From Planctomycetota bacterium (lineage in GTDB: Bacteria; Planctomycetota; MHYJ01; JACQXL01; JACQZI01): a stretch of 21,425 bases of DNA. The DNA is taken from assembly GCA_016207825.1 (NCBI GenBank), contig JACQZI010000034.1:1-21425 (forward strand), read 5' to 3'. The stretch's first letter is position 1, and every line of letters begins with the position of its first letter. The notes beneath the pieces are model-generated. The model saw only the letters and a program-made list of their open reading frames with translations, did no database searches and was not told the origin of the DNA. A program made the position numbers and the translations under genes. Shown here one piece after another: positions 10,288-21,425 of this stretch.

Positions 10288-11811
10288 ATGGGCAATAAAA
10301 TGCCACTTTCCATTATTATATTGTTGATTATGTTATCAGCGCAACCACTCTTTGCGCAGACTTTCGGGGATAATATCCGCGTTGACGATACGGGAAATAA
10401 TGTTATTACACAATCAAGCCCGTCAATAGCCATAGACGAGAACGGAAATATTTATGCCTCATGGACTGATGAAAGAAACGGGCATCCGGACATATATTTC
10501 TCCAAAAGCACGGATAGTGGCGCGACCTTCGGCGCGAATATCAAGGTAAATGACAATAACGCGTCAGCCTCCAAGCCGTCAATGGCGCTTGACAGCAATG
10601 GGAATATCCTCATCGCCTGGCAGGACGAAAGGAACGGCAACCCGGATATATATTTTGCGCAAAGCGCTAATGGCGGAATAACCTTTACGGCGAATACAAG
10701 GGTGGATGATACAGGCGTTTCCACCGCAACACAATCAACTCCGGTTATCGGAATCCACCAGGGCAGTAACAGCATCTATGCCGCCTGGATTGATGAGCGC
10801 GAGGGCGCCAAGCACATATATTTTACCAAAAGCACTAATGGCGGGACGAGCTTTTCGGCAAACATTAAAATAGACGATGCCGGTTCAATCACTCCGGATA
10901 ACGTCAGCCTGGCGGTTGACGACAACGACAACATCTATATTTCCTGGAAAGACGAAAGAAACGGAAGCCCTGATATTTACTTTGATACGAGCAACAACGG
11001 CGGCGCAAGTTTCGGGGTTGATAAAAAGGTGAATAGTGTCAGTTCATCAAGCGGATTCCCGAAAATCGCGGTCGATTCAAACAGCAATATCTATCTCGCC
11101 TGGCAGGATAATAGAAACGGAAACTTGGACATTTATTTCTCGTCAAGCACGGATACCGGAACAACTTTCAGCGCCGACCTGCGGGTAGATAACACAGGAA
11201 TCAGCACCTCCTCTCAACAAGCCCCGGTTATTATAACCGATTCGATAAATATTTACATTACCTGGCAGGATAATAGAAACGGCCCGCCTGACGCGGGTGA
11301 CATCTACTTTGCGCAGAGCATTACCGCCACCCCCAATTTCACCACCAATGTAAGGATAGATGATACCGGCACTTCCACCAGCACCCAAACTGCCCCATCG
11401 TTAACCGTGGACAGCTCTGGATATATCTACGCGGTATGGTCCGATAGCCGGAAAAGCTTAGGCGATACGGATATCTATTTTGCCACGACCAATGTAACAA
11501 GCACGGTTATTTCCGGCTCAAGCGGCAATCCCGCAACCAGCGATAAAAAATCTAATGGTAGTTTAAACTGCTTCATTGCCACGGCGGCTTTCGGCACGCC
11601 CATGGCAAAAGAGGTTGTTGTATTACGGCGATTCCGGGATAAATACTTATTAACGAATCCGGCTGGAAAATATTTGGTTGATGCTTATTATAAGATAAGC
11701 CCGCCGATTGCAAAAGTGATTAGTAAAAATAGTACACTGCGGAGCATAACACGTATGACACTTAATCCTCTTGTTAATTGCATGCGGAACATAGATAGGC
11801 AAAAAGATTAA
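10288..11811 (+). CDS. Exported seven-repeat Asp-box propeller protein with CFI-type C-terminus
   Basis: 507 residues. A signal peptide (1–23) is probably cut after PLFA. Seven repeats follow, each with a W-x-D-x-R motif (tryptophans at 59, 111, 167, 220, 272, 326, 384) and mostly followed by D-I-Y-F and an Asp-box such as STDSGATF. Spacing is 52–58 residues. Seven such repeats fit one seven-bladed sialidase-type beta-propeller, but no sialidase catalytic arginine triad or tyrosine was identified, so a binding or structural role is more likely than catalysis. After a Ser/Gly linker, CFIATAAFG at 428–436 opens a roughly 70-residue C-terminal domain with V-V-L-R-R-F-R-D-K-Y-L. This matches what is annotated in many genomes as the CFI-box C-terminal domain, seen on surface proteins. 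No Shine-Dalgarno; a second ATG lies at 10300. Confidence 0.85.
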   Translation: MGNKMPLSIIILLIMLSAQPLFAQTFGDNIRVDDTGNNVITQSSPSIAIDENGNIYASWTDERNGHPDIYFSKSTDSGATFGANIKVNDNNASASKPSMALDSNGNILIAWQDERNGNPDIYFAQSANGGITFTANTRVDDTGVSTATQSTPVIGIHQGSNSIYAAWIDEREGAKHIYFTKSTNGGTSFSANIKIDDAGSITPDNVSLAVDDNDNIYISWKDERNGSPDIYFDTSNNGGASFGVDKKVNSVSSSSGFPKIAVDSNSNIYLAWQDNRNGNLDIYFSSSTDTGTTFSADLRVDNTGISTSSQQAPVIITDSINIYITWQDNRNGPPDAGDIYFAQSITATPNFTTNVRIDDTGTSTSTQTAPSLTVDSSGYIYAVWSDSRKSLGDTDIYFATTNVTSTVISGSSGNPATSDKKSNGSLNCFIATAAFGTPMAKEVVVLRRFRDKYLLTNPAGKYLVDAYYKISPPIAKVISKNSTLRSITRMTLNPLVNCMRNIDRQKD

Positions 11812-11871: not shown

Positions 11872-12179
11872 ACGATTTGATACAGGGAATCTCACGGCTT
11901 TACTACCGGGGGGTTACGGTCAAATACCAGGGGACTTACGGTTTTACTGCCGGGGGGTAACGGCTTTACTACTAAGGGGTAACGGCTTTACTACCAGGGG
12001 CTAACGGATTTACTACCAAGGGGTAACGGCTTTACTACCGGGGGGTTACGGATTTACTACCAGGGACTAACGGTCTTACTACCAGGGGGTTACGGTCTTA
12101 CGACCGGGGGGTAACGGCTTAATACCAGGGGGCTCACGGCTTAATACCAGGGAACTCACGGCTTTACTGCCGGGGGGTA
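11872..12179. repeat. Tandem array of fourteen 22-bp repeats
   Basis: Fourteen consecutive units, every one exactly 22 bp, with no spacers. The typical unit starts ACGGCTTTACTACC and ends with a run of 3–6 G and then TA, TT or CTC. The unit beginning at 11872 is the most diverged (ACGATTTG); those at 11894 and 12026 are identical. Units vary by point substitutions only, never by length. Neighbours sometimes share variants (12114 and 12136 both have CTTAATACC and CTC ends), consistent with local duplication. The period is not a multiple of three and stop codons occur, so it is not coding. It is not CRISPR, since there are no unique spacers. Confidence 0.95.
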
Positions 12180-12185
12180 ACGGAC

Positions 12186-12434: not shown

Positions 12435-12881
12435 ATGGCTAAAAAGTGTCGGTTTATCAGATTGGAGCGGAAGCAACGTGAGGAACTGAATGCTTTTATA
12501 GGCGTGCTGGTTGCAAAACAGAGCTTGTCTTCGTTACGTCGTGTGCAGGCGGTTATGCTTTCGGATGCGGGTAAAATGCCCTCAGAGATAGCCCGGACAT
12601 TAGGTGCGTGTGAGGCTTCGGTCTATCGCTGGCTTTTGGGCTACCGGAAATTCGGTCCGGCAGGACTGGCCGGACGGGTTCAGCCGGGCAAATTAACTCC
12701 TGAGCAGATTGATAAACTTTTAGGAATAAGCGGCCGTCGTCCGGTACAAGATGGGAAAGCGGGTAAAAAGCCATGGAGTTTCCGGAAGATATCCCGCTGG
12801 GCCAAGTCGAACTGGAATGTCAGTATCTCTGCGGTCCGTTTGAGACAGATTATTCTTAAGCGGATATTGATGGATAAATAA
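12435..12881 (+). CDS. Stand-alone IS630-type helix-turn-helix protein (DDE domain absent)
   Basis: 148 residues resembling only the N-terminal DNA-binding half of IS630-family transposases. It shows R-R-V-Q-A-V-M-L at 35–42, a first helix-turn-helix at about 49–70 (EIARTLGACEASVYRWL), the linker G-P-A-G-L-A-G, and a second winged segment at about 113–144 (W-S-F-R-K-I-S ... ISAVRLRQIILK). A full transposase runs to about 340 residues with a catalytic DDE domain. Here a stop follows and the next sequence is the promoter of the giant gene, so no catalytic part remains. A weak AGGG precedes the ATG. It is either a decayed insertion-sequence remnant or a captured DNA-binding regulator; the intact frame and the direct repeats just upstream make the second worth considering. 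Confidence 0.75.
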   Translation: MAKKCRFIRLERKQREELNAFIGVLVAKQSLSSLRRVQAVMLSDAGKMPSEIARTLGACEASVYRWLLGYRKFGPAGLAGRVQPGKLTPEQIDKLLGISGRRPVQDGKAGKKPWSFRKISRWAKSNWNVSISAVRLRQIILKRILMDK

Positions 12882-12892
12882 TGAAAACAGGA

Positions 12893-12921
12893 TTGACTTA
12901 GTTAAGAATGTATGATATAAT
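12893..12921 (+). promoter_or_regulatory. Promoter of the giant surface-protein gene
   Basis: TTGACT (12893–12898), a 17-bp spacer and TATAAT (12916–12921). The ATG at 12935 lies 13 bp further on, so the leader would be about 7 nt and contains no Shine-Dalgarno. The giant gene therefore seems to have its own strong promoter, separate from the HTH gene. Confidence 0.75.
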
Positions 12922-12934
12922 CTGATTTTTATAT

Positions 12935-15900
12935 ATGAAACAGTTTAAAAGATATTTCTTCGCTATTGTTTTAGTTTTTGCCTTTCAGTTTGTAATTAAT
13001 CTCAATCCGCTCCAGGCGGAAGTGACGATTGATGCCGGACTTACAGATGCGACTTTTGAATATAATCCTTCACCGTGCGCAGTATTCATTAATGCCACTA
13101 CCGGTTATGTGTTTAATGTTACGGGCGGTAATTTTGTTTATCGTAAGACAACTGACGGTGGGAAAACATGGGCGGCGGCCGTAACATTCATGGCGGCTAA
13201 AACCTCAGGGAATATTGCAGTTTGGTATGACCGTTGGACGCCTAATGATAATGCCGGCACCCGAATACATATTGCGGCTTCAGAAACAGGAACCGATGAC
13301 ACCTGGTACCATTATTTAGATACCGCAACCGATACACTTCGCCCGGCTGGCGCCATTGCCGTAAGATTAGGAGCTTCTTATGCACTGGCAGATGGCGGAC
13401 CAACTATTTGCAAATCAACCGAAGGCTACTTGTATATTGCCTGTTTTTCTAGTACTGCCGCGCACCGGGGAGTCTCAAGGTCTGTAAATGGTGGTGATGC
13501 ATGGGTAAATATTACACCTGGTTTTCTCTTTGATGATGACGATGACCACTGCCAGCTTTTGCCCTTAGCTGGTGGCGATGTCCTGTGTATCTATAATGAT
13601 ATGACGGCGAGTCAAGGCCTCTGGTTTGTCTGGGAAGAAGATACGGATACCTGGTCGGCAAGTGCCACGGTCTTAGATACCTGGACCGAGAATGCGACCT
13701 ATAATGCCTGCTTTGGTGCCACCTGTATCCGGAATACTTCTTCCAATGATATTTATCTGTCCGCCAATAATTCACCCAATAATGCGTCCGGTGACCTGAA
13801 GGCATATAAATTCACGGATAGCACCCACACCTGGGCCGTCTTAACGGATATACTGACTGATACGAATGGGTGTCTTGATGTCAAGATGTTCCGTGACCTG
13901 AGTAACGGCGATTTGTACGCCATATATGTAAGAGGTTGGGCTGAAAACTACAACCAGGTCTTTTCCAGGAAGTCAACTGATGGTGGCAACACCTGGGGAC
14001 CTGAAACCCTGGTAAGTTATACTTCAGACGACCACAAGTACGTAAGAACTAATCTAATGAGTGCAGATATAAAACGTATCTTCTGGTACAATGATGACCT
14101 GAACGATTTATTGTGCGATGCCCGGTATATCCTGACCTGGCAAGGTCTGAGTCGGGACTTTGATGACCCCAATAATTGGTCGCCCGCGATTGCCCCTACG
14201 AATGCCTATAGTTTAATCATCCCTCAAGTAGGCTCGGGTAATTATCCTTTGATTGATTCCACGACCGTAGGGGCGAATCAGAATTGTAAGGCACTTACTA
14301 TCAATACCGGTGCTAATATCCAGTTAAACGGGCTTGACCTTACGTGTTATGGTCCGGTGGTGATAGAAGAGGGTGGTGAACTAAAGATTACCAACGGAGG
14401 CAGTCAGTTCAATATTCGGGTAAGTTATGAGAATTACGGCACCTTAACAAATACGGAAGGTGACGTGGTCTTACAAGGTCCTGGAGATGGTCCGGTTGCC
14501 CCGGCCTTAGTCAAAACTAATTGCGCCGGTACAGGCAAGTCCTTTAAGTTCCTGAGGATTCCGGCATACGCAAGACTCAGCGATGGAGTTACCCTTGAAG
14601 TTACGGGGACAGGTGGTTTAGGATTCCAACTGAATGGTGGATACCTCTATGCCGGTAACAATACTACCCTGATTACCTATGATAGCTGGGGAACAACCAC
14701 TGGTAAATTCTATAAAGACACCAGCACGGTCATCTTAAAAGGCACGGGTAATATCCCTTATGAGAGCGATGCGGTACTGCCTTATGAGTTTTATAACCTC
14801 CAGATAGATGGTACTTTTTCTGTCGCTGGAACAAATCAATATGTATATAATCATCTAACTATTACTGAAAATGGTAGTTTAGCAGCCTCCACTTATAACA
14901 TCTATGGATACGGCAACTGGGTAAATAACGGTTCATTCAATGCAAGTAGTGCTGAGGTGCAATTAATCGGAACAAGTTCTTCTGCGATTACCGGCACAAC
15001 CCAGTTTAATATCGTTCGTTTTGGCGATGGGACTAATGCCAAAACCATTACCTTGCAGAGCGGCGCTGATATTAAGGCAACTAATACCTTGGAAATCAAA
15101 GCAAATGCGGTACTTAACGGTTCGCCAACAGGCGGTCCTAATGCAACACTAACCATTCCTTCAGGATGTATGCTTACTATTGGCGGAACGTGGCAACCGC
15201 GAAACGGAACTTTTATCTGGCAGAAGGATGATACCCAGGAACAACTGCCTGCATTGGCAAACGGTTTTTATAAATTGATAGTTGACCCTTCGGGATCGGG
15301 TAATGTTACCCCTAACGGGGCGTTAAATATAGGGAGTGATTTTTATATTAAATCCGGCACTTTTAACGGCGGCAACGTATTAACACATACTATCGGCGGA
15401 GATTGGATTCAAGACGGCGCTTTTTCTTCCGGCACTTCCACCATTATATTTAATGGCGCCGATTGTGAAATTCTTAAGTCCCCGAGCAATGCCGGTTCAC
15501 TTACTTTTAATAGTCTTACTTCATCCGGCACTTTGACCAAAATAGAATACGGTAAGTCCATAGTAGTAACCGGTAATTTCAATATTACCGCCGGAACTTT
15601 TAACGCCGGAACTGCGACTGTATTCACCATAAGTACCTGGACTGATAGTGGAGCATTCAATGCCGGGACAAGCGAAGTTATTTGGAAAGGCGGTCAGATT
15701 CCCGAACAATCCGGCGGAAATGCACACGAGGATTTCTATTCGCTGACCGTTGACGGAACTTGTTCGCTTGACGGCGCGAATTCGGACAAAACCTTTACTA
15801 TAAATAAGCATCTCAAGATAAACAGCACAAAGTCTCTTGATGCCGGCTCACCGGCTACGCCTTATAATATTGAACTCAAGGGCAATTTCCAATTGGACGG

Positions 15901-18900
15901 TAGTTTTACTGCAGGCAATTCTAAACTCCTTTTAAACGGTACGGTTAAACAGACCCTGAACGGTTCGACTTCGCTTACCATAAATAATCTTGAGATAAAT
16001 AAAACAACAGGTGACGCAAATGCTAAGACTGTGGAACTCGCTTTTGGTTTGGGAGGTACCGATTTAACCATTAACGGCACTACAAATATTTTAGCCGGCA
16101 TTCTTAATTTAGGCTCAACTGCTGATACGGTGGTTTCGCAAGGCAATATAACAGTCGGCAATGCTTCCGGAACGGATGATTCCATAATTTCTATGTTGGG
16201 TGGTGTTACTTTGCAGATGGGTAATGGAACGGTTCTGGAAGTAAAAACACCGGACGGGATTCTGGAATCGGCGCAAAGTGGTTTGATACCGTTAGTTACT
16301 TCCACTAACCCGGGAACTAATTTCTATTATATAAAAATAGCAGGCAAAACGCGGGTGAATGGCTTGCAGATAAAATCCATAGGCTCAGCCGGGACGTTTA
16401 CTGACCCGGGTGCAAATCACGGCGTTACCATCCTGACCACGGCTGATATTTATAGCGCGGGAGATACTTATTTTGACCAGGTTACCTTTGATGACATTCA
16501 GGGTTCCGGTACGCGTGATACATATTTAAGAGTTTTCCGTAATGCCTCATCTCCTCAATTGTCCCTTGAGTTTAATAAGCACAAATATGACGATGGAGCG
16601 GTAGATGCAAACGCAGATGTTAATGTTTATCTAAATCGTGGTTCAACCGGCAGTACGATTATCCAGTCAATGTCTTCTGGGAATAAGGGCGGCACTAATG
16701 CAGAAACCTATGACATGAGAGATGATTCATCCAGTCCGGGTGATGACCCTGACCCGGGCTCCATCCAATGGCCTATCAACAAGGTCTGGACCGGATTAGT
16801 GAGTGATGCCTGGAATGTTGACGGTAACTGGAAATTAGAAGACGGTTCGCCAACTGAAGCGCCGGGTGGTTCTGATTCAATAACTATTCCGTCCAATCCG
16901 GACAGCAATCCTGATAAATGGCCTGTTATATCAGCCAATGCGTCAGTAAAAAATATTACGTTACAGTCGCCGATTAGCGCAGTTCCTACAACCGTATTGT
17001 CGGTTAACGGCTCATGGATATTTACCATCTACGGCACATGGACAATCAATGATTATACTAATTGCCTGTTTGACCCCGGAACGTCTACTGTGGATTACGC
17101 AGGGTCTTCAGGACAGGGCGTGGTAGCCACGACTTATTATAACTTGCAACTTTCCAATACTTCGGGATTGCAAATGGTTTTCGAGCCCATTATTATCTAT
17201 AACGATTGCACTATTCTTGGAGGCGTTAACTTTATTGCGACCACGACTGATGTCCGCGTTGAAGGCAACTGGAATAATTACGGAACTTTTTCGCCCGGCA
17301 ATTGTACTATTAAGTTTCAGGGGAATTCCGGTGGTCAGGAACAGAATATTACGGGCGGACAATTTAGGCACCTGGAATTCTCAGGAAGCGAATCCAAGAA
17401 GATAAACGGGACGACTGAAGTATTAGGAAATGTCTCTATTGCTGGCGGCGCCACGGTTAATGCTACAGACCAGAGCGCGATAGATATCAAAATCGGAGGT
17501 AACTTTACGGTTACCGGCACATTCTCTGCCGGACTTTCTACAATAATCTTTAACGGCGCCGCGGCACAGGAACTGATTCGTCCTGCGGGAACGATTTCGT
17601 TTAATAATCTTAAATTACTAAATACCGGTACATCATTAAAATTAGTCCAGCAATCAGGCGGAGCCACGACCCAGACAATAACTATTTCTACCAGTGATAA
17701 TGCCGGCAATACCAATTTAGGAAATATTAATATCGGAACCGGAACAACACTGGATGCGACTAATGACATTATTAATTGCGGCGGCAACTGGCTGGTTAAC
17801 GGATCTTTTACTTATGACGGCTCAACTGTTAGCTTAAATGCCTCAGCAGCCCAAGCTATTAAAACTAATTCCTCTTTTTATACGCTTAATATCGCTAATT
17901 CACATTCTTCAGATTACGTCACCTTTGAAGGCAATATTACGGTAAATAATAATCTTAATATCACTGACGGTCAGGTGAAACTGGATATCGGAACCGCGCT
18001 GAATCATGGTGTAGCAGACAATGTCACGATTGCCGGCGGGGCAAAATTGGAAATGGGAATAAGTAATTTAGTAATTGGCAATTCATCTGTTTTTGGTGAT
18101 TTAAGCATTAACGGCCAGTTTATAATGTCTTCTACAGGCACGGCTGCTCCGACTTTGAAGTTACACGGCGATTCAGGCACAGTAAATTACACGGTAGAAG
18201 CCAATAGGCCTGATATTACGGTTAACGGGACATTTCAAACGCTTTGGTCTAACGGCGCTAAGCCTCTGATTCAAGCTTATAATCCGATTACGCCGGGTCC
18301 CTTTTATTGTTTTGCTGTGAAGGCAAGCGGGATAATTAATGTAAACGGATTGGTTATAGATTCGGCTTATACTTATGACAGCGTAACTACTATATTCTCG
18401 GCATTACTCTTAGAACCAGGTGCTGTTTGCAGTAATCTGAATAATGTAGATTATCAGAATATCATGGGTGGGGTGAGCGGAACTTATCGTGGCTTGCAGT
18501 TCCGGATTGCTTCCGGTACCTATATATTTGATGGTTGTTCCTTTGACGATACCTGCACATATAATGTCAGGACCGATAATGGAACGCCAACCATTAATAT
18601 GACTAATGCCGGCGGAACGCGCGGGGTATCTACCTATGAGGACCAGGTATCGGGTACAATCAACTGGATTGCCAACCGCATATGGAACGGCGGTGCGACC
18701 GACATTTGGACGAATACTGCCAATTGGGACGGTGCTTTGAGAGCCGATACTACGGATGAAACAGCTATTATTAACCGAGTTTTGCCTAATGGTTATAACC
18801 CTCGTGTTAGGACTGCGAGTTATACAATAAGAAACTTAGTTATTAAAAATAGTAATACGGTATTTATAGATGATGATGGCGGTGATGACCTTACCGTCAG

Positions 18901-21425
18901 CGGTGATGTTATCATGGAACCGGGAAGCGGGATTACGATGAAGGATTTTGCTACTTGTTTACTGTATGTACAGGGAAACTGGGATAACCAGGGAGGAATA
19001 TTAGACCAACAATCAACCGGCGGTATTATTTATCTCAGAGGCGTGGGTAAAACCATATCAACCGAGACCGGATTCCGCAAGCTTTCTATTGACACTGCCG
19101 GTACTTCATATACGCTTGTGGATGGCGCTACGGTTGCCATAAGCGGGACTTCCGCTTCCTATTTCATCAATGCCACGGCAATGCTGTATGGCGGAAATAA
19201 TACCAATCCTGCAACATTAAAGGCATCGGTCTGGGCGACCAATCTTAATCGGTTTGATGCAGGTAATTCTAAGTTTGTCTGGATGGGAACGACTAATGTG
19301 CCTTTAGAAACATATTACGACCTGCAAATTGGAAGCCAATCCGATGGCTACAATATTTCCACCACTTATGCTTATAGCGCAGACAGGTTGATTAACCGCC
19401 ATTTGATTGTTGATGCCGGGTCAACACTGACTCTTAATCAAACAGGCGGCACCCTTATTGTTAAAGGTAATATCTGGGTAAAAGAAGGCGCAACGCTTAA
19501 TCTGAATAATGCTACAGTCAGGTTAGAAGGCGATTTTATAATAGATGGCGTCGTCAACGGCGGGACTTCAACCGTGATATTCGGCGGCGGCATTAACCAG
19601 AAAATAAGAAGTACGGTTACTCCGCCTTCTTTGACGCTTAATGATATCCAAATAACACCCACTACTATTGCCGAATTGAATATGCCGATTACCACCACCA
19701 ATATTAATTCGGGGTTGGCATCACCGCACGGCATTATTAAATTGAATTCATATCAATTGGTAATTACCGGACAATGGAACGATTCGGATGCCGGAGATAA
19801 TTTAACAGAAGATACCGGCACGGTTTATTTCTACGGAACTTCGGCAACCATACCCAATGAAACCTGGTATGACCTGAAAGTCGGCGCGCCGAGTGCGGAT
19901 ACGACTTATACCCTACCGAACAATACCACGGTAAAGAATGATATTACTTTTAATGAAAATGGAATTATTAATTCGGGCGGGTTTGCGCTGTATGTCGCCA
20001 GGCACTGGATTGATAACGGCAGCGAAGATAATTTCACGGAAGGCGCCGGGACAGTCCAGTTTAACGGTACGGTCCAGCAAAATGTATCGGGCGAAACGTT
20101 TAATAATCTCATAATTACCAACACCGGCGTGGCGGTTTCGGTAATTGCACAAGGAAAATTAACTGTATCAAATAATTTAACGATATCCAATGGAACGCTT
20201 GATTTCGGGAGCGGGTTTGTCGGCGGAAACAAGCACACAATAGGCGGTTATTGCTATATAGATAACGGCAAGCTAAAGCTGAATACCTCCTCAATCAGCA
20301 TAACCGGCTTATTACGGATAGGCGACGGGTCCGTTGGCAGCGGTATTCTGGATATGACGGCAAATTCCACGGACGACCCTGATGTGACAGCAACCGGCGG
20401 TGTAAATGTAACCTCAACCGGCACGCTTGACGTGACCGGATCGTCAGCTTCCATTACTGCAGGTGGCAACTGGGTGCGTACGGGTAGTTTTAACCTGGGC
20501 CAATCCAAGGTAATCTTAAGCGGAGACGGCAATTATATTACCACAACCGGAACAAGCGATTTCTATGCATTGCATATAAATGCAGGCAGTGTGATTTCCG
20601 CCTCGACCGATTGCAGTATAACCAATAACCTGGTGGTAACCGGCCAATTCGGCACGGCCAATAAGACCGTGGCGGTAAGCGGCAACATCACCAACGGAGG
20701 AATAATCTATATCGGTGAGGCAGCCGCTGCCGGGACGCTTGACTTAGAAGGTGATTTTACAGGAGGCTCTTTAAGATTCATTAACGGAGGCAGTTCCTTA
20801 CTCTATTTTTCCGGAGCAAGCTTTGCTCCGACAGACTTAATGGCTTCTAACGGGACTATTATTTTTGATAATACATTATCCGGACAAACCATACCATCAT
20901 ACACGTATAATAATATCAGGATTCTCAAAAGCGGGCAAACCGCCACAGCCGGAGGGAATCTGGCAATAAACGGCACCTTGAATGTATCCAGCGGGATATT
21001 CGACGGAGATGACGGCTCGGCAAGAGTGCATACCATCGGCGCCATCTCCAACAGCGGCACGGTCAAGATGGACCTGGCTTCTACCATAAATGTTACCGGC
21101 AACACGATAAACGCAAGCCAGGTAGATATCGGAATCGGGACGTATAACAATGCGGTTAATTATACCAATACCGGAGGCACAACCACCCTCGGTGCGGGAC
21201 TGCTGGATATAAACGGCAATCTTACAGGAGGAACAATAGATTTTAATAATACAACCGGCACATTGCGAATAGCCGGTACCTTTACACCAACCACGCTTAA
21301 TGAAGATGCCGGCACGATCATATTTGACGGCACAGGACAGGCTATACCGGCTGAATCATATTACAATTTAAAGACCGGCAGTATCAATACGACTTATACA
21401 TTAGGCGGAGCTATCCAGGTAAAAG
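12935..21425 (+). CDS. Giant exported Asp-box and beta-solenoid repeat protein, partial at the right edge
   Basis: I read this frame codon by codon from ATG 12935 to the edge and found no stop: at least 2830 residues, C-terminus missing. Residues 1–28 are a signal peptide (hydrophobic core FAIVLVFAFQFVI, cut near LQA). Residues about 30–400 hold three Asp-boxes (TDGGKTW near 73–79, SVNGGDAW 183–190, STDGGNTW 347–354) and a DDDDD run at 200–204, a sialidase-like propeller region. Three W-x-G...NW headers follow (402–415, 1285–1299, 1917–1931), each opening a long Gly/Asn/Thr-rich solenoid. Units of about 71–95 residues start G-x-W/F, then G-S/T-F-x-x-G-x-S and often F-N-G (at 660, 751, 822, 900, 983; 1367, 1444, 1522, 1617; 2279, 2356, 2511). 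An acidic proline linker lies at 1263–1276. It is probably a cell-surface adhesin or fibre; the anchor lies beyond the window. Confidence 0.92.
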   Translation, partial: MKQFKRYFFAIVLVFAFQFVINLNPLQAEVTIDAGLTDATFEYNPSPCAVFINATTGYVFNVTGGNFVYRKTTDGGKTWAAAVTFMAAKTSGNIAVWYDRWTPNDNAGTRIHIAASETGTDDTWYHYLDTATDTLRPAGAIAVRLGASYALADGGPTICKSTEGYLYIACFSSTAAHRGVSRSVNGGDAWVNITPGFLFDDDDDHCQLLPLAGGDVLCIYNDMTASQGLWFVWEEDTDTWSASATVLDTWTENATYNACFGATCIRNTSSNDIYLSANNSPNNASGDLKAYKFTDSTHTWAVLTDILTDTNGCLDVKMFRDLSNGDLYAIYVRGWAENYNQVFSRKSTDGGNTWGPETLVSYTSDDHKYVRTNLMSADIKRIFWYNDDLNDLLCDARYILTWQGLSRDFDDPNNWSPAIAPTNAYSLIIPQVGSGNYPLIDSTTVGANQNCKALTINTGANIQLNGLDLTCYGPVVIEEGGELKITNGGSQFNIRVSYENYGTLTNTEGDVVLQGPGDGPVAPALVKTNCAGTGKSFKFLRIPAYARLSDGVTLEVTGTGGLGFQLNGGYLYAGNNTTLITYDSWGTTTGKFYKDTSTVILKGTGNIPYESDAVLPYEFYNLQIDGTFSVAGTNQYVYNHLTITENGSLAASTYNIYGYGNWVNNGSFNASSAEVQLIGTSSSAITGTTQFNIVRFGDGTNAKTITLQSGADIKATNTLEIKANAVLNGSPTGGPNATLTIPSGCMLTIGGTWQPRNGTFIWQKDDTQEQLPALANGFYKLIVDPSGSGNVTPNGALNIGSDFYIKSGTFNGGNVLTHTIGGDWIQDGAFSSGTSTIIFNGADCEILKSPSNAGSLTFNSLTSSGTLTKIEYGKSIVVTGNFNITAGTFNAGTATVFTISTWTDSGAFNAGTSEVIWKGGQIPEQSGGNAHEDFYSLTVDGTCSLDGANSDKTFTINKHLKINSTKSLDAGSPATPYNIELKGNFQLDGSFTAGNSKLLLNGTVKQTLNGSTSLTINNLEINKTTGDANAKTVELAFGLGGTDLTINGTTNILAGILNLGSTADTVVSQGNITVGNASGTDDSIISMLGGVTLQMGNGTVLEVKTPDGILESAQSGLIPLVTSTNPGTNFYYIKIAGKTRVNGLQIKSIGSAGTFTDPGANHGVTILTTADIYSAGDTYFDQVTFDDIQGSGTRDTYLRVFRNASSPQLSLEFNKHKYDDGAVDANADVNVYLNRGSTGSTIIQSMSSGNKGGTNAETYDMRDDSSSPGDDPDPGSIQWPINKVWTGLVSDAWNVDGNWKLEDGSPTEAPGGSDSITIPSNPDSNPDKWPVISANASVKNITLQSPISAVPTTVLSVNGSWIFTIYGTWTINDYTNCLFDPGTSTVDYAGSSGQGVVATTYYNLQLSNTSGLQMVFEPIIIYNDCTILGGVNFIATTTDVRVEGNWNNYGTFSPGNCTIKFQGNSGGQEQNITGGQFRHLEFSGSESKKINGTTEVLGNVSIAGGATVNATDQSAIDIKIGGNFTVTGTFSAGLSTIIFNGAAAQELIRPAGTISFNNLKLLNTGTSLKLVQQSGGATTQTITISTSDNAGNTNLGNINIGTGTTLDATNDIINCGGNWLVNGSFTYDGSTVSLNASAAQAIKTNSSFYTLNIANSHSSDYVTFEGNITVNNNLNITDGQVKLDIGTALNHGVADNVTIAGGAKLEMGISNLVIGNSSVFGDLSINGQFIMSSTGTAAPTLKLHGDSGTVNYTVEANRPDITVNGTFQTLWSNGAKPLIQAYNPITPGPFYCFAVKASGIINVNGLVIDSAYTYDSVTTIFSALLLEPGAVCSNLNNVDYQNIMGGVSGTYRGLQFRIASGTYIFDGCSFDDTCTYNVRTDNGTPTINMTNAGGTRGVSTYEDQVSGTINWIANRIWNGGATDIWTNTANWDGALRADTTDETAIINRVLPNGYNPRVRTASYTIRNLVIKNSNTVFIDDDGGDDLTVSGDVIMEPGSGITMKDFATCLLYVQGNWDNQGGILDQQSTGGIIYLRGVGKTISTETGFRKLSIDTAGTSYTLVDGATVAISGTSASYFINATAMLYGGNNTNPATLKASVWATNLNRFDAGNSKFVWMGTTNVPLETYYDLQIGSQSDGYNISTTYAYSADRLINRHLIVDAGSTLTLNQTGGTLIVKGNIWVKEGATLNLNNATVRLEGDFIIDGVVNGGTSTVIFGGGINQKIRSTVTPPSLTLNDIQITPTTIAELNMPITTTNINSGLASPHGIIKLNSYQLVITGQWNDSDAGDNLTEDTGTVYFYGTSATIPNETWYDLKVGAPSADTTYTLPNNTTVKNDITFNENGIINSGGFALYVARHWIDNGSEDNFTEGAGTVQFNGTVQQNVSGETFNNLIITNTGVAVSVIAQGKLTVSNNLTISNGTLDFGSGFVGGNKHTIGGYCYIDNGKLKLNTSSISITGLLRIGDGSVGSGILDMTANSTDDPDVTATGGVNVTSTGTLDVTGSSASITAGGNWVRTGSFNLGQSKVILSGDGNYITTTGTSDFYALHINAGSVISASTDCSITNNLVVTGQFGTANKTVAVSGNITNGGIIYIGEAAAAGTLDLEGDFTGGSLRFINGGSSLLYFSGASFAPTDLMASNGTIIFDNTLSGQTIPSYTYNNIRILKSGQTATAGGNLAINGTLNVSSGIFDGDDGSARVHTIGAISNSGTVKMDLASTINVTGNTINASQVDIGIGTYNNAVNYTNTGGTTTLGAGLLDINGNLTGGTIDFNNTTGTLRIAGTFTPTTLNEDAGTIIFDGTGQAIPAESYYNLKTGSINTTYTLGGAIQVK

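Follow-up and report, generated by a model that had tools for sequence, protein, structure and literature searches.

A giant planctomycete gene with a propeller head, predicted solenoid-like blocks and a conserved membrane-protein neighbour

Introduction

Planctomycete giant genes of the Reva and Tummler class were surveyed in the Fuerstia marisgermanicae study, where genes >5 kb were present in 29 of 29 planctomycete genomes, fifteen genomes had genes >20 kb, and the largest gene was 36 kb (PMC5177795). In Apilactobacillus kunkeei, the Giant1-5 proteins are extracellular and 3,000-8,000 residues long (PMC12863079). Giant surface genes are therefore already known as common in Planctomycetota, and the gene described here, which is >5 kb and encodes a signal peptide and repetitive extracellular domains, is ordinary in kind and a new member.

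The DNA analyzed (“the window”) is a stretch of 21,425 nucleotides that makes up the entire contig C34 of a planctomycete genome of 2.89 Mb (42 contigs, 97.6% complete). An original prediction, read from the letters of the window, proposed a giant surface-protein gene at its 3' end.

Results

From the ATG at 12935 to 21424 on the forward strand, all 2,830 codons predicted to form an uninterrupted frame are open in one frame with no stop, a run with a probability of ~10^-72 at the local base composition. The gene was also expected to leave the window, and it does so: the final 140 nt of the window recur exactly in two stretches of contig C22 (Table 1), into which this overlap leads. The frame resumes there and is open up to C22:6607. 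At C22:6600-6661, the last 62 nt or so of the 140-bp repeat are then present as an exact 62-nt tandem copy that shifts the frame, and beyond it the shifted frame is open through C22:13044. The duplication was left in place, and the two C22 frames were read separately. Extension to the stop codon thus reaches the gene end at C22:13044, giving a total of about 7,110 codons provided that the duplication is an artefact, and the window covers the first 40% of a real gene with ~7,100 codons. As for frameshifts, the frame within the window is intact, whereas the duplication at C22:6600-6661 does break it in this assembly.

Table 1. Features of the giant-gene locus, in window coordinates
Feature	Position	Strand	Remarks
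Secreted 507-aa beta-propeller protein with CFI-box C-terminal domain	10288..11811	+	
Sigma-70-like promoter, TTGACT-17-TATAAT, TG before -10	12893..12921	+	11/12 matches; chance possible
Giant surface-protein gene, 5' part, 2,830 codons	12935..21425	+	Continues on C22 to 13044
Predicted signal peptide, residues 1-28, likely cleavage after LQA	12935..13018	+	Hydropathy, sequence
Predicted Asp-box beta-propeller head, residues ~29-400	13019..14134	+	Sequence, model, relatives
Block 1, W-G...W...NW cap, residues ~402-1284	14138..16786	+	
Block 2 with cap, residues 1285-1916	16787..18682	+	
Block 3 with cap, residues 1917 on, into C22	18683..21425	+	
Tract of ~4 kb, 5' part, homogenized with second copy later in giant gene	20135..21425	+	Boundary approximate
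140-bp exact repeat	21286..21425	+	Also C22:1-140 and C22:6460-6599; contig break site

G003, a genome from a different family of this order, carries a collinear ortholog (63-68% identity) as one uninterrupted frame of 6,814 codons (C1:25864-46308). The three pieces of the gene align to it in order: window residues 414-2830 to ortholog residues 372-2768 (67%), the first C22 piece to residues 2723-4872 (61%) and the second to residues 4853-6814 (66%). Differences from the ortholog fall on the three codon positions at 26%, 18% and 58%, which indicates that the giant frame is under protein-level (purifying) selection.

The 62-nt duplication is likely, although unproven, to be an assembly error, because the ortholog has a single copy at this place and because the duplication sits at the repeat where the contigs break. 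Were the gene truly broken at C22:6600-6661, its product would have ~4,985 residues and lack the C-terminal propeller described below. The duplication is exact and out of frame, but it is placed precisely at the repeat that also broke the assembly, it is missing from the ortholog, and the 6.4-kb frame downstream and the gene after it are both open and conserved, which makes a true break rather improbable.

The 140-bp repeat lies inside the giant gene and broke the assembly, which is why contig C34 stops within the gene. In a tract of ~4 kb that spans it, the two copies within the gene are more alike than the orthologous copies are: 497 informative sites support a grouping by genome against 75 for one by position. 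Outside the tract the balance tips the other way, with 90 sites by genome versus 678 by position. Both genomes show homogenization over the same part, a clean case of concerted evolution in one gene. Recombination within the giant gene is the simplest explanation of these site patterns and would account for the breaks of short-read assemblies there. Such giant genes are probably under-counted in short-read assemblies.

With so little distance between the near-consensus promoter and the ATG, the giant mRNA would be almost leaderless if the promoter is used. The original prediction of a signal peptide agrees with an N-terminal hydrophobic segment followed by LQA|E. Likewise, the Asp-box region is borne out by three Asp boxes of the all-beta head, which lie in the N-terminal 350 residues of the protein, by a match of the isolated head domain to BNR_2 in Pfam (E 1.2e-8) and by a propeller in the AlphaFold2 model of residues 28-1100 (eleven sequences, mean pLDDT 68). 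The structure prediction suggested as a check thus gives a propeller for the head, and its best PDB matches are the PLL lectins of Photorhabdus (Z 24.6 over 309 residues, at an rmsd of 3.2 Å). Glycoside-hydrolase propellers rank next (Z ~21), and GH145-type propellers, sialidases and ulvan lyase are also among the structural matches. By fold match, the predicted head would be a seven-bladed propeller. Sequence searches of the PDB with the head (phmmer and profiles) returned no PLL.

A profile search against sialidases had been suggested, and the result is divided. BNR_2 is matched, and the Asp boxes lie in a beta-propeller as in GH33 (three boxes, propeller in the model), but the catalytic hallmarks are missing: the RIP motif ([FYMIVL]RIP) is absent from six of six head relatives, and, as for a conserved arginine triad, no arginine column is common to all six. 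A sialidase identity was rejected on these two grounds, and sialidase activity of the head seems unlikely.

The G003 ortholog has no head, and its N-terminus is solenoid-like. Relatives of the head, at 36-38% identity, were found only in family f50, in five genomes, where they head proteins with Ig-like repeats. Since the head is absent from G003, sits on Ig-like bodies in f50 and on a solenoid-type body here, it occurs on different bodies and, judging from these comparisons, has been exchanged between lineages. In the five f50 loci (L116-L120), the Asp-box head is attached to Calx-beta or Ig-like repeat proteins, and in at least three of the five the head gene directly follows a radical-SAM-like gene.

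The remainder of the protein consists largely of blocks, each opened by a W-G...W...NW cap. There are seven in total, three beginning in the window and two in each C22 piece, and the G003 ortholog has seven caps too. Gly, Asn, Ser and Thr abound in the blocks, hydrophobic residues recur in them at lags 2, 6, 8, 14 and 19-23, and the AlphaFold2 model has regular short strands from residue 400 onward. This strand pattern, the composition and the moderate-confidence model suggest that the blocks are beta-solenoid-like. No family in Pfam, NCBIfam or PHROG covers them, and block profiles gave chance matches only against the PDB and Pfam, with no solved solenoid matched. Because the head filled the list of the fold search, the lack of solenoid entries there does not speak against the fold. 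Of the three or more beta-solenoid segments first proposed, the repeated segments stand, at seven, whereas a match to a solved solenoid was not found; the suggested pectate-lyase-like profile search gave a negative result, as the blocks match neither pectate lyase nor any other enzyme family.

Over its last 400-odd residues, the protein matches the designed PQQ-like propellers ‘Cake’ with an E value of 8e-30, and this region is conserved in G003 and in another genome, G002. Its structure model is poor (pLDDT 46) and goes no further than agreeing with a propeller. The C-terminal open reading frame showed no transmembrane segment or sorting signal by Pfam, NCBIfam and hydropathy. Specifically, there was no Pfam or NCBIfam match to an autotransporter outer-membrane beta-barrel and no NCBIfam match to a type IX sorting domain (TIGR04183-type); where a secretion-signal C-terminal family had been envisaged, a PQQ-like propeller was found instead. 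The total length and the anchor had both been placed beyond the window edge. The rest of the gene was indeed found there, but no transmembrane or sorting signal was found in the giant protein itself.

The next gene (C22:13056-16643) encodes a PQQ propeller, Fn3, a beta-helix and a CFI-box, and its C-terminus has a hydrophobic membrane helix with an Arg/Lys-rich end. CFI-box NF041770 is matched at this C-terminus with 95-105 bits against a cut-off of 40. The giant gene and this partner adjoin in the present genome, in G003 (a homolog with 50% identity) and in G007 (a related CFI-box gene), and in G002 the N-terminal part of the partner follows the giant gene up to the contig end. The adjacency suggests that the C-terminal propeller of the giant protein may dock on the partner, which would then likely anchor the rod on the cell. 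A nucleotidyltransferase gene lies at C22:18513, beyond a 251-codon gene; in G003 it directly follows the partner, with 37% identity. The genome has three CFI-box genes, two of which flank the giant gene (the partner and the 507-aa protein in Table 1). The third, C32:1897-2103 (L151), is within a 1,926-codon frame away from the giant locus.

The neighbours of the locus include the housekeeping genes mutS, ssb, rpsF and pth. Upstream of the giant gene, in non-coding DNA, an array of a 22-nt unit (ACGGCTTTACTACCGGGGGGTA) occupies 11894-12184 with ~11 or more copies that are 77-80% alike. A 148-codon helix-turn-helix ORF at 12435-12881, resembling the N-terminal half of an IS630-type transposase, is a single copy in the genome and ends 54 nt before the giant gene.

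The nearest named relatives of the MutS are from Planctomycetota including Scalindua (54%), in keeping with a planctomycete host. One f50 member with a head relative encodes hydrazine synthase; none was found in this genome, and the host is thus probably not of the anammox type.

A profile of the C-terminal third has matches in 60 of 392 planctomycete genomes. Strong ones came from the order, as well as from family f26 and two genomes of the class, and many weaker ones span a cap or a propeller blade only. Three genomes of the same order (G004, G005 and G006) have at most marginal matches, and some of these genomes are incomplete. Pattern scans of genome contigs and viral contigs and tblastn against plasmids and phages returned no relatives of the giant. 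A frame of >7,100 codons in a genome of the same genus (G001) was rejected as the ortholog, being similar in length but without caps and with a different start; this separate giant without W-G-NW caps occupies C69:43617-65000 and beyond (L145/L146). The original view of the gene as an accessory feature applies to the variable head, while both the body and the gene that follows it have been kept across the order's families.

Discussion

We lean slightly towards a Sec-exported, rod-like surface adhesin with an exchangeable tip that is anchored through its partner. The signal peptide, the propeller head and the repeated solenoid-type blocks agree with the giant surface protein originally predicted. 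By its length, the adhesin would have a mass of ~0.7 MDa. Its fold suggests that the N-terminal propeller may serve as an exchangeable glycan-binding tip, and the seven capped blocks could act as a stiff spacer with a length of very roughly 150 nm (~6,300 residues, at ~20 residues and 0.48 nm per rung). At the other end, the C-terminal PQQ-like propeller would dock on the product of the next gene, and this partner, through its propeller, Fn3, beta-helix, CFI-box and C-terminal transmembrane helix, would hold the rod on the cell. As the site patterns show, the repeated blocks are homogenized, most simply by recombination inside the gene. Much more tentatively, and with some doubt on our side, this may be a cell-surface system conserved within the order: a fibre of ~7,000 residues, built as propeller-rod-propeller, that a separate CFI-box membrane protein holds by propeller docking, with tip exchange between lineages and a rod renewed by gene conversion.

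A structural component of the cell envelope, sheath or S-layer type would likewise be large, all-beta and rich in Gly, Asn, Ser and Thr, as well as conserved in several families of the order, and S-layers are possible in planctomycetes (PMC12288469). We nevertheless consider this role, as opposed to that of an adhesin, unlikely, as the protein is the product of a single, very long gene and has a distinct tip domain that can be exchanged, and three genomes of the order, some of them incomplete, have marginal matches at most.

The Asp boxes, the BNR_2 match and the structural matches to GH145-type propellers, sialidases and ulvan lyase could also be those of an extracellular enzyme, with a sialidase or polysaccharide lyase/hydrolase as head and blocks that bind or process polysaccharide. 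This is improbable, since the head family has neither the RIP motif nor a common arginine, PLL lectins score higher, the searches linked the blocks to no enzyme family, pectate lyases included, and the ortholog lacks the head yet keeps the rest. The structural matches also include phage fibres with propellers, but a phage tail fibre or prophage gene can be dismissed as extremely improbable given the signal peptide, the housekeeping neighbours, the lack of a PHROG match and the lack of relatives in the phage and viral collections.

With the partner-anchored adhesin as the preferred reading, an unexplained planctomycete giant gene becomes a defined, testable and conserved unit of giant rod, membrane-bound partner and nucleotidyltransferase, and a role as fibre partners is suggested for CFI-box proteins.

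The giant genes described in planctomycetes are likewise >20 kb and predicted to function in cell-surface adhesion or carbohydrate binding, but they were surveyed by size (PMC5177795), whereas here domain order, the partner gene and recombination within the gene mark out one family. Photorhabdus PLL proteins are seven-bladed lectins with the fold that is predicted for the head. At 9-14% identity there is no sequence-level match between them, and the PLL proteins are small free lectins, not tips of giant rods (PMC6943638, PMC12203525). Giant1-5 of A. kunkeei also combine a long rod, terminal binding domains and recombination within genes, but they belong to a Gram-positive species and have one N-terminal solenoid, helical repeats and an SH3b-type C-terminus (PMC12863079). 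In the planctomycete protein, by contrast, the rod would consist of solenoid-type blocks, with predicted propellers at both ends.
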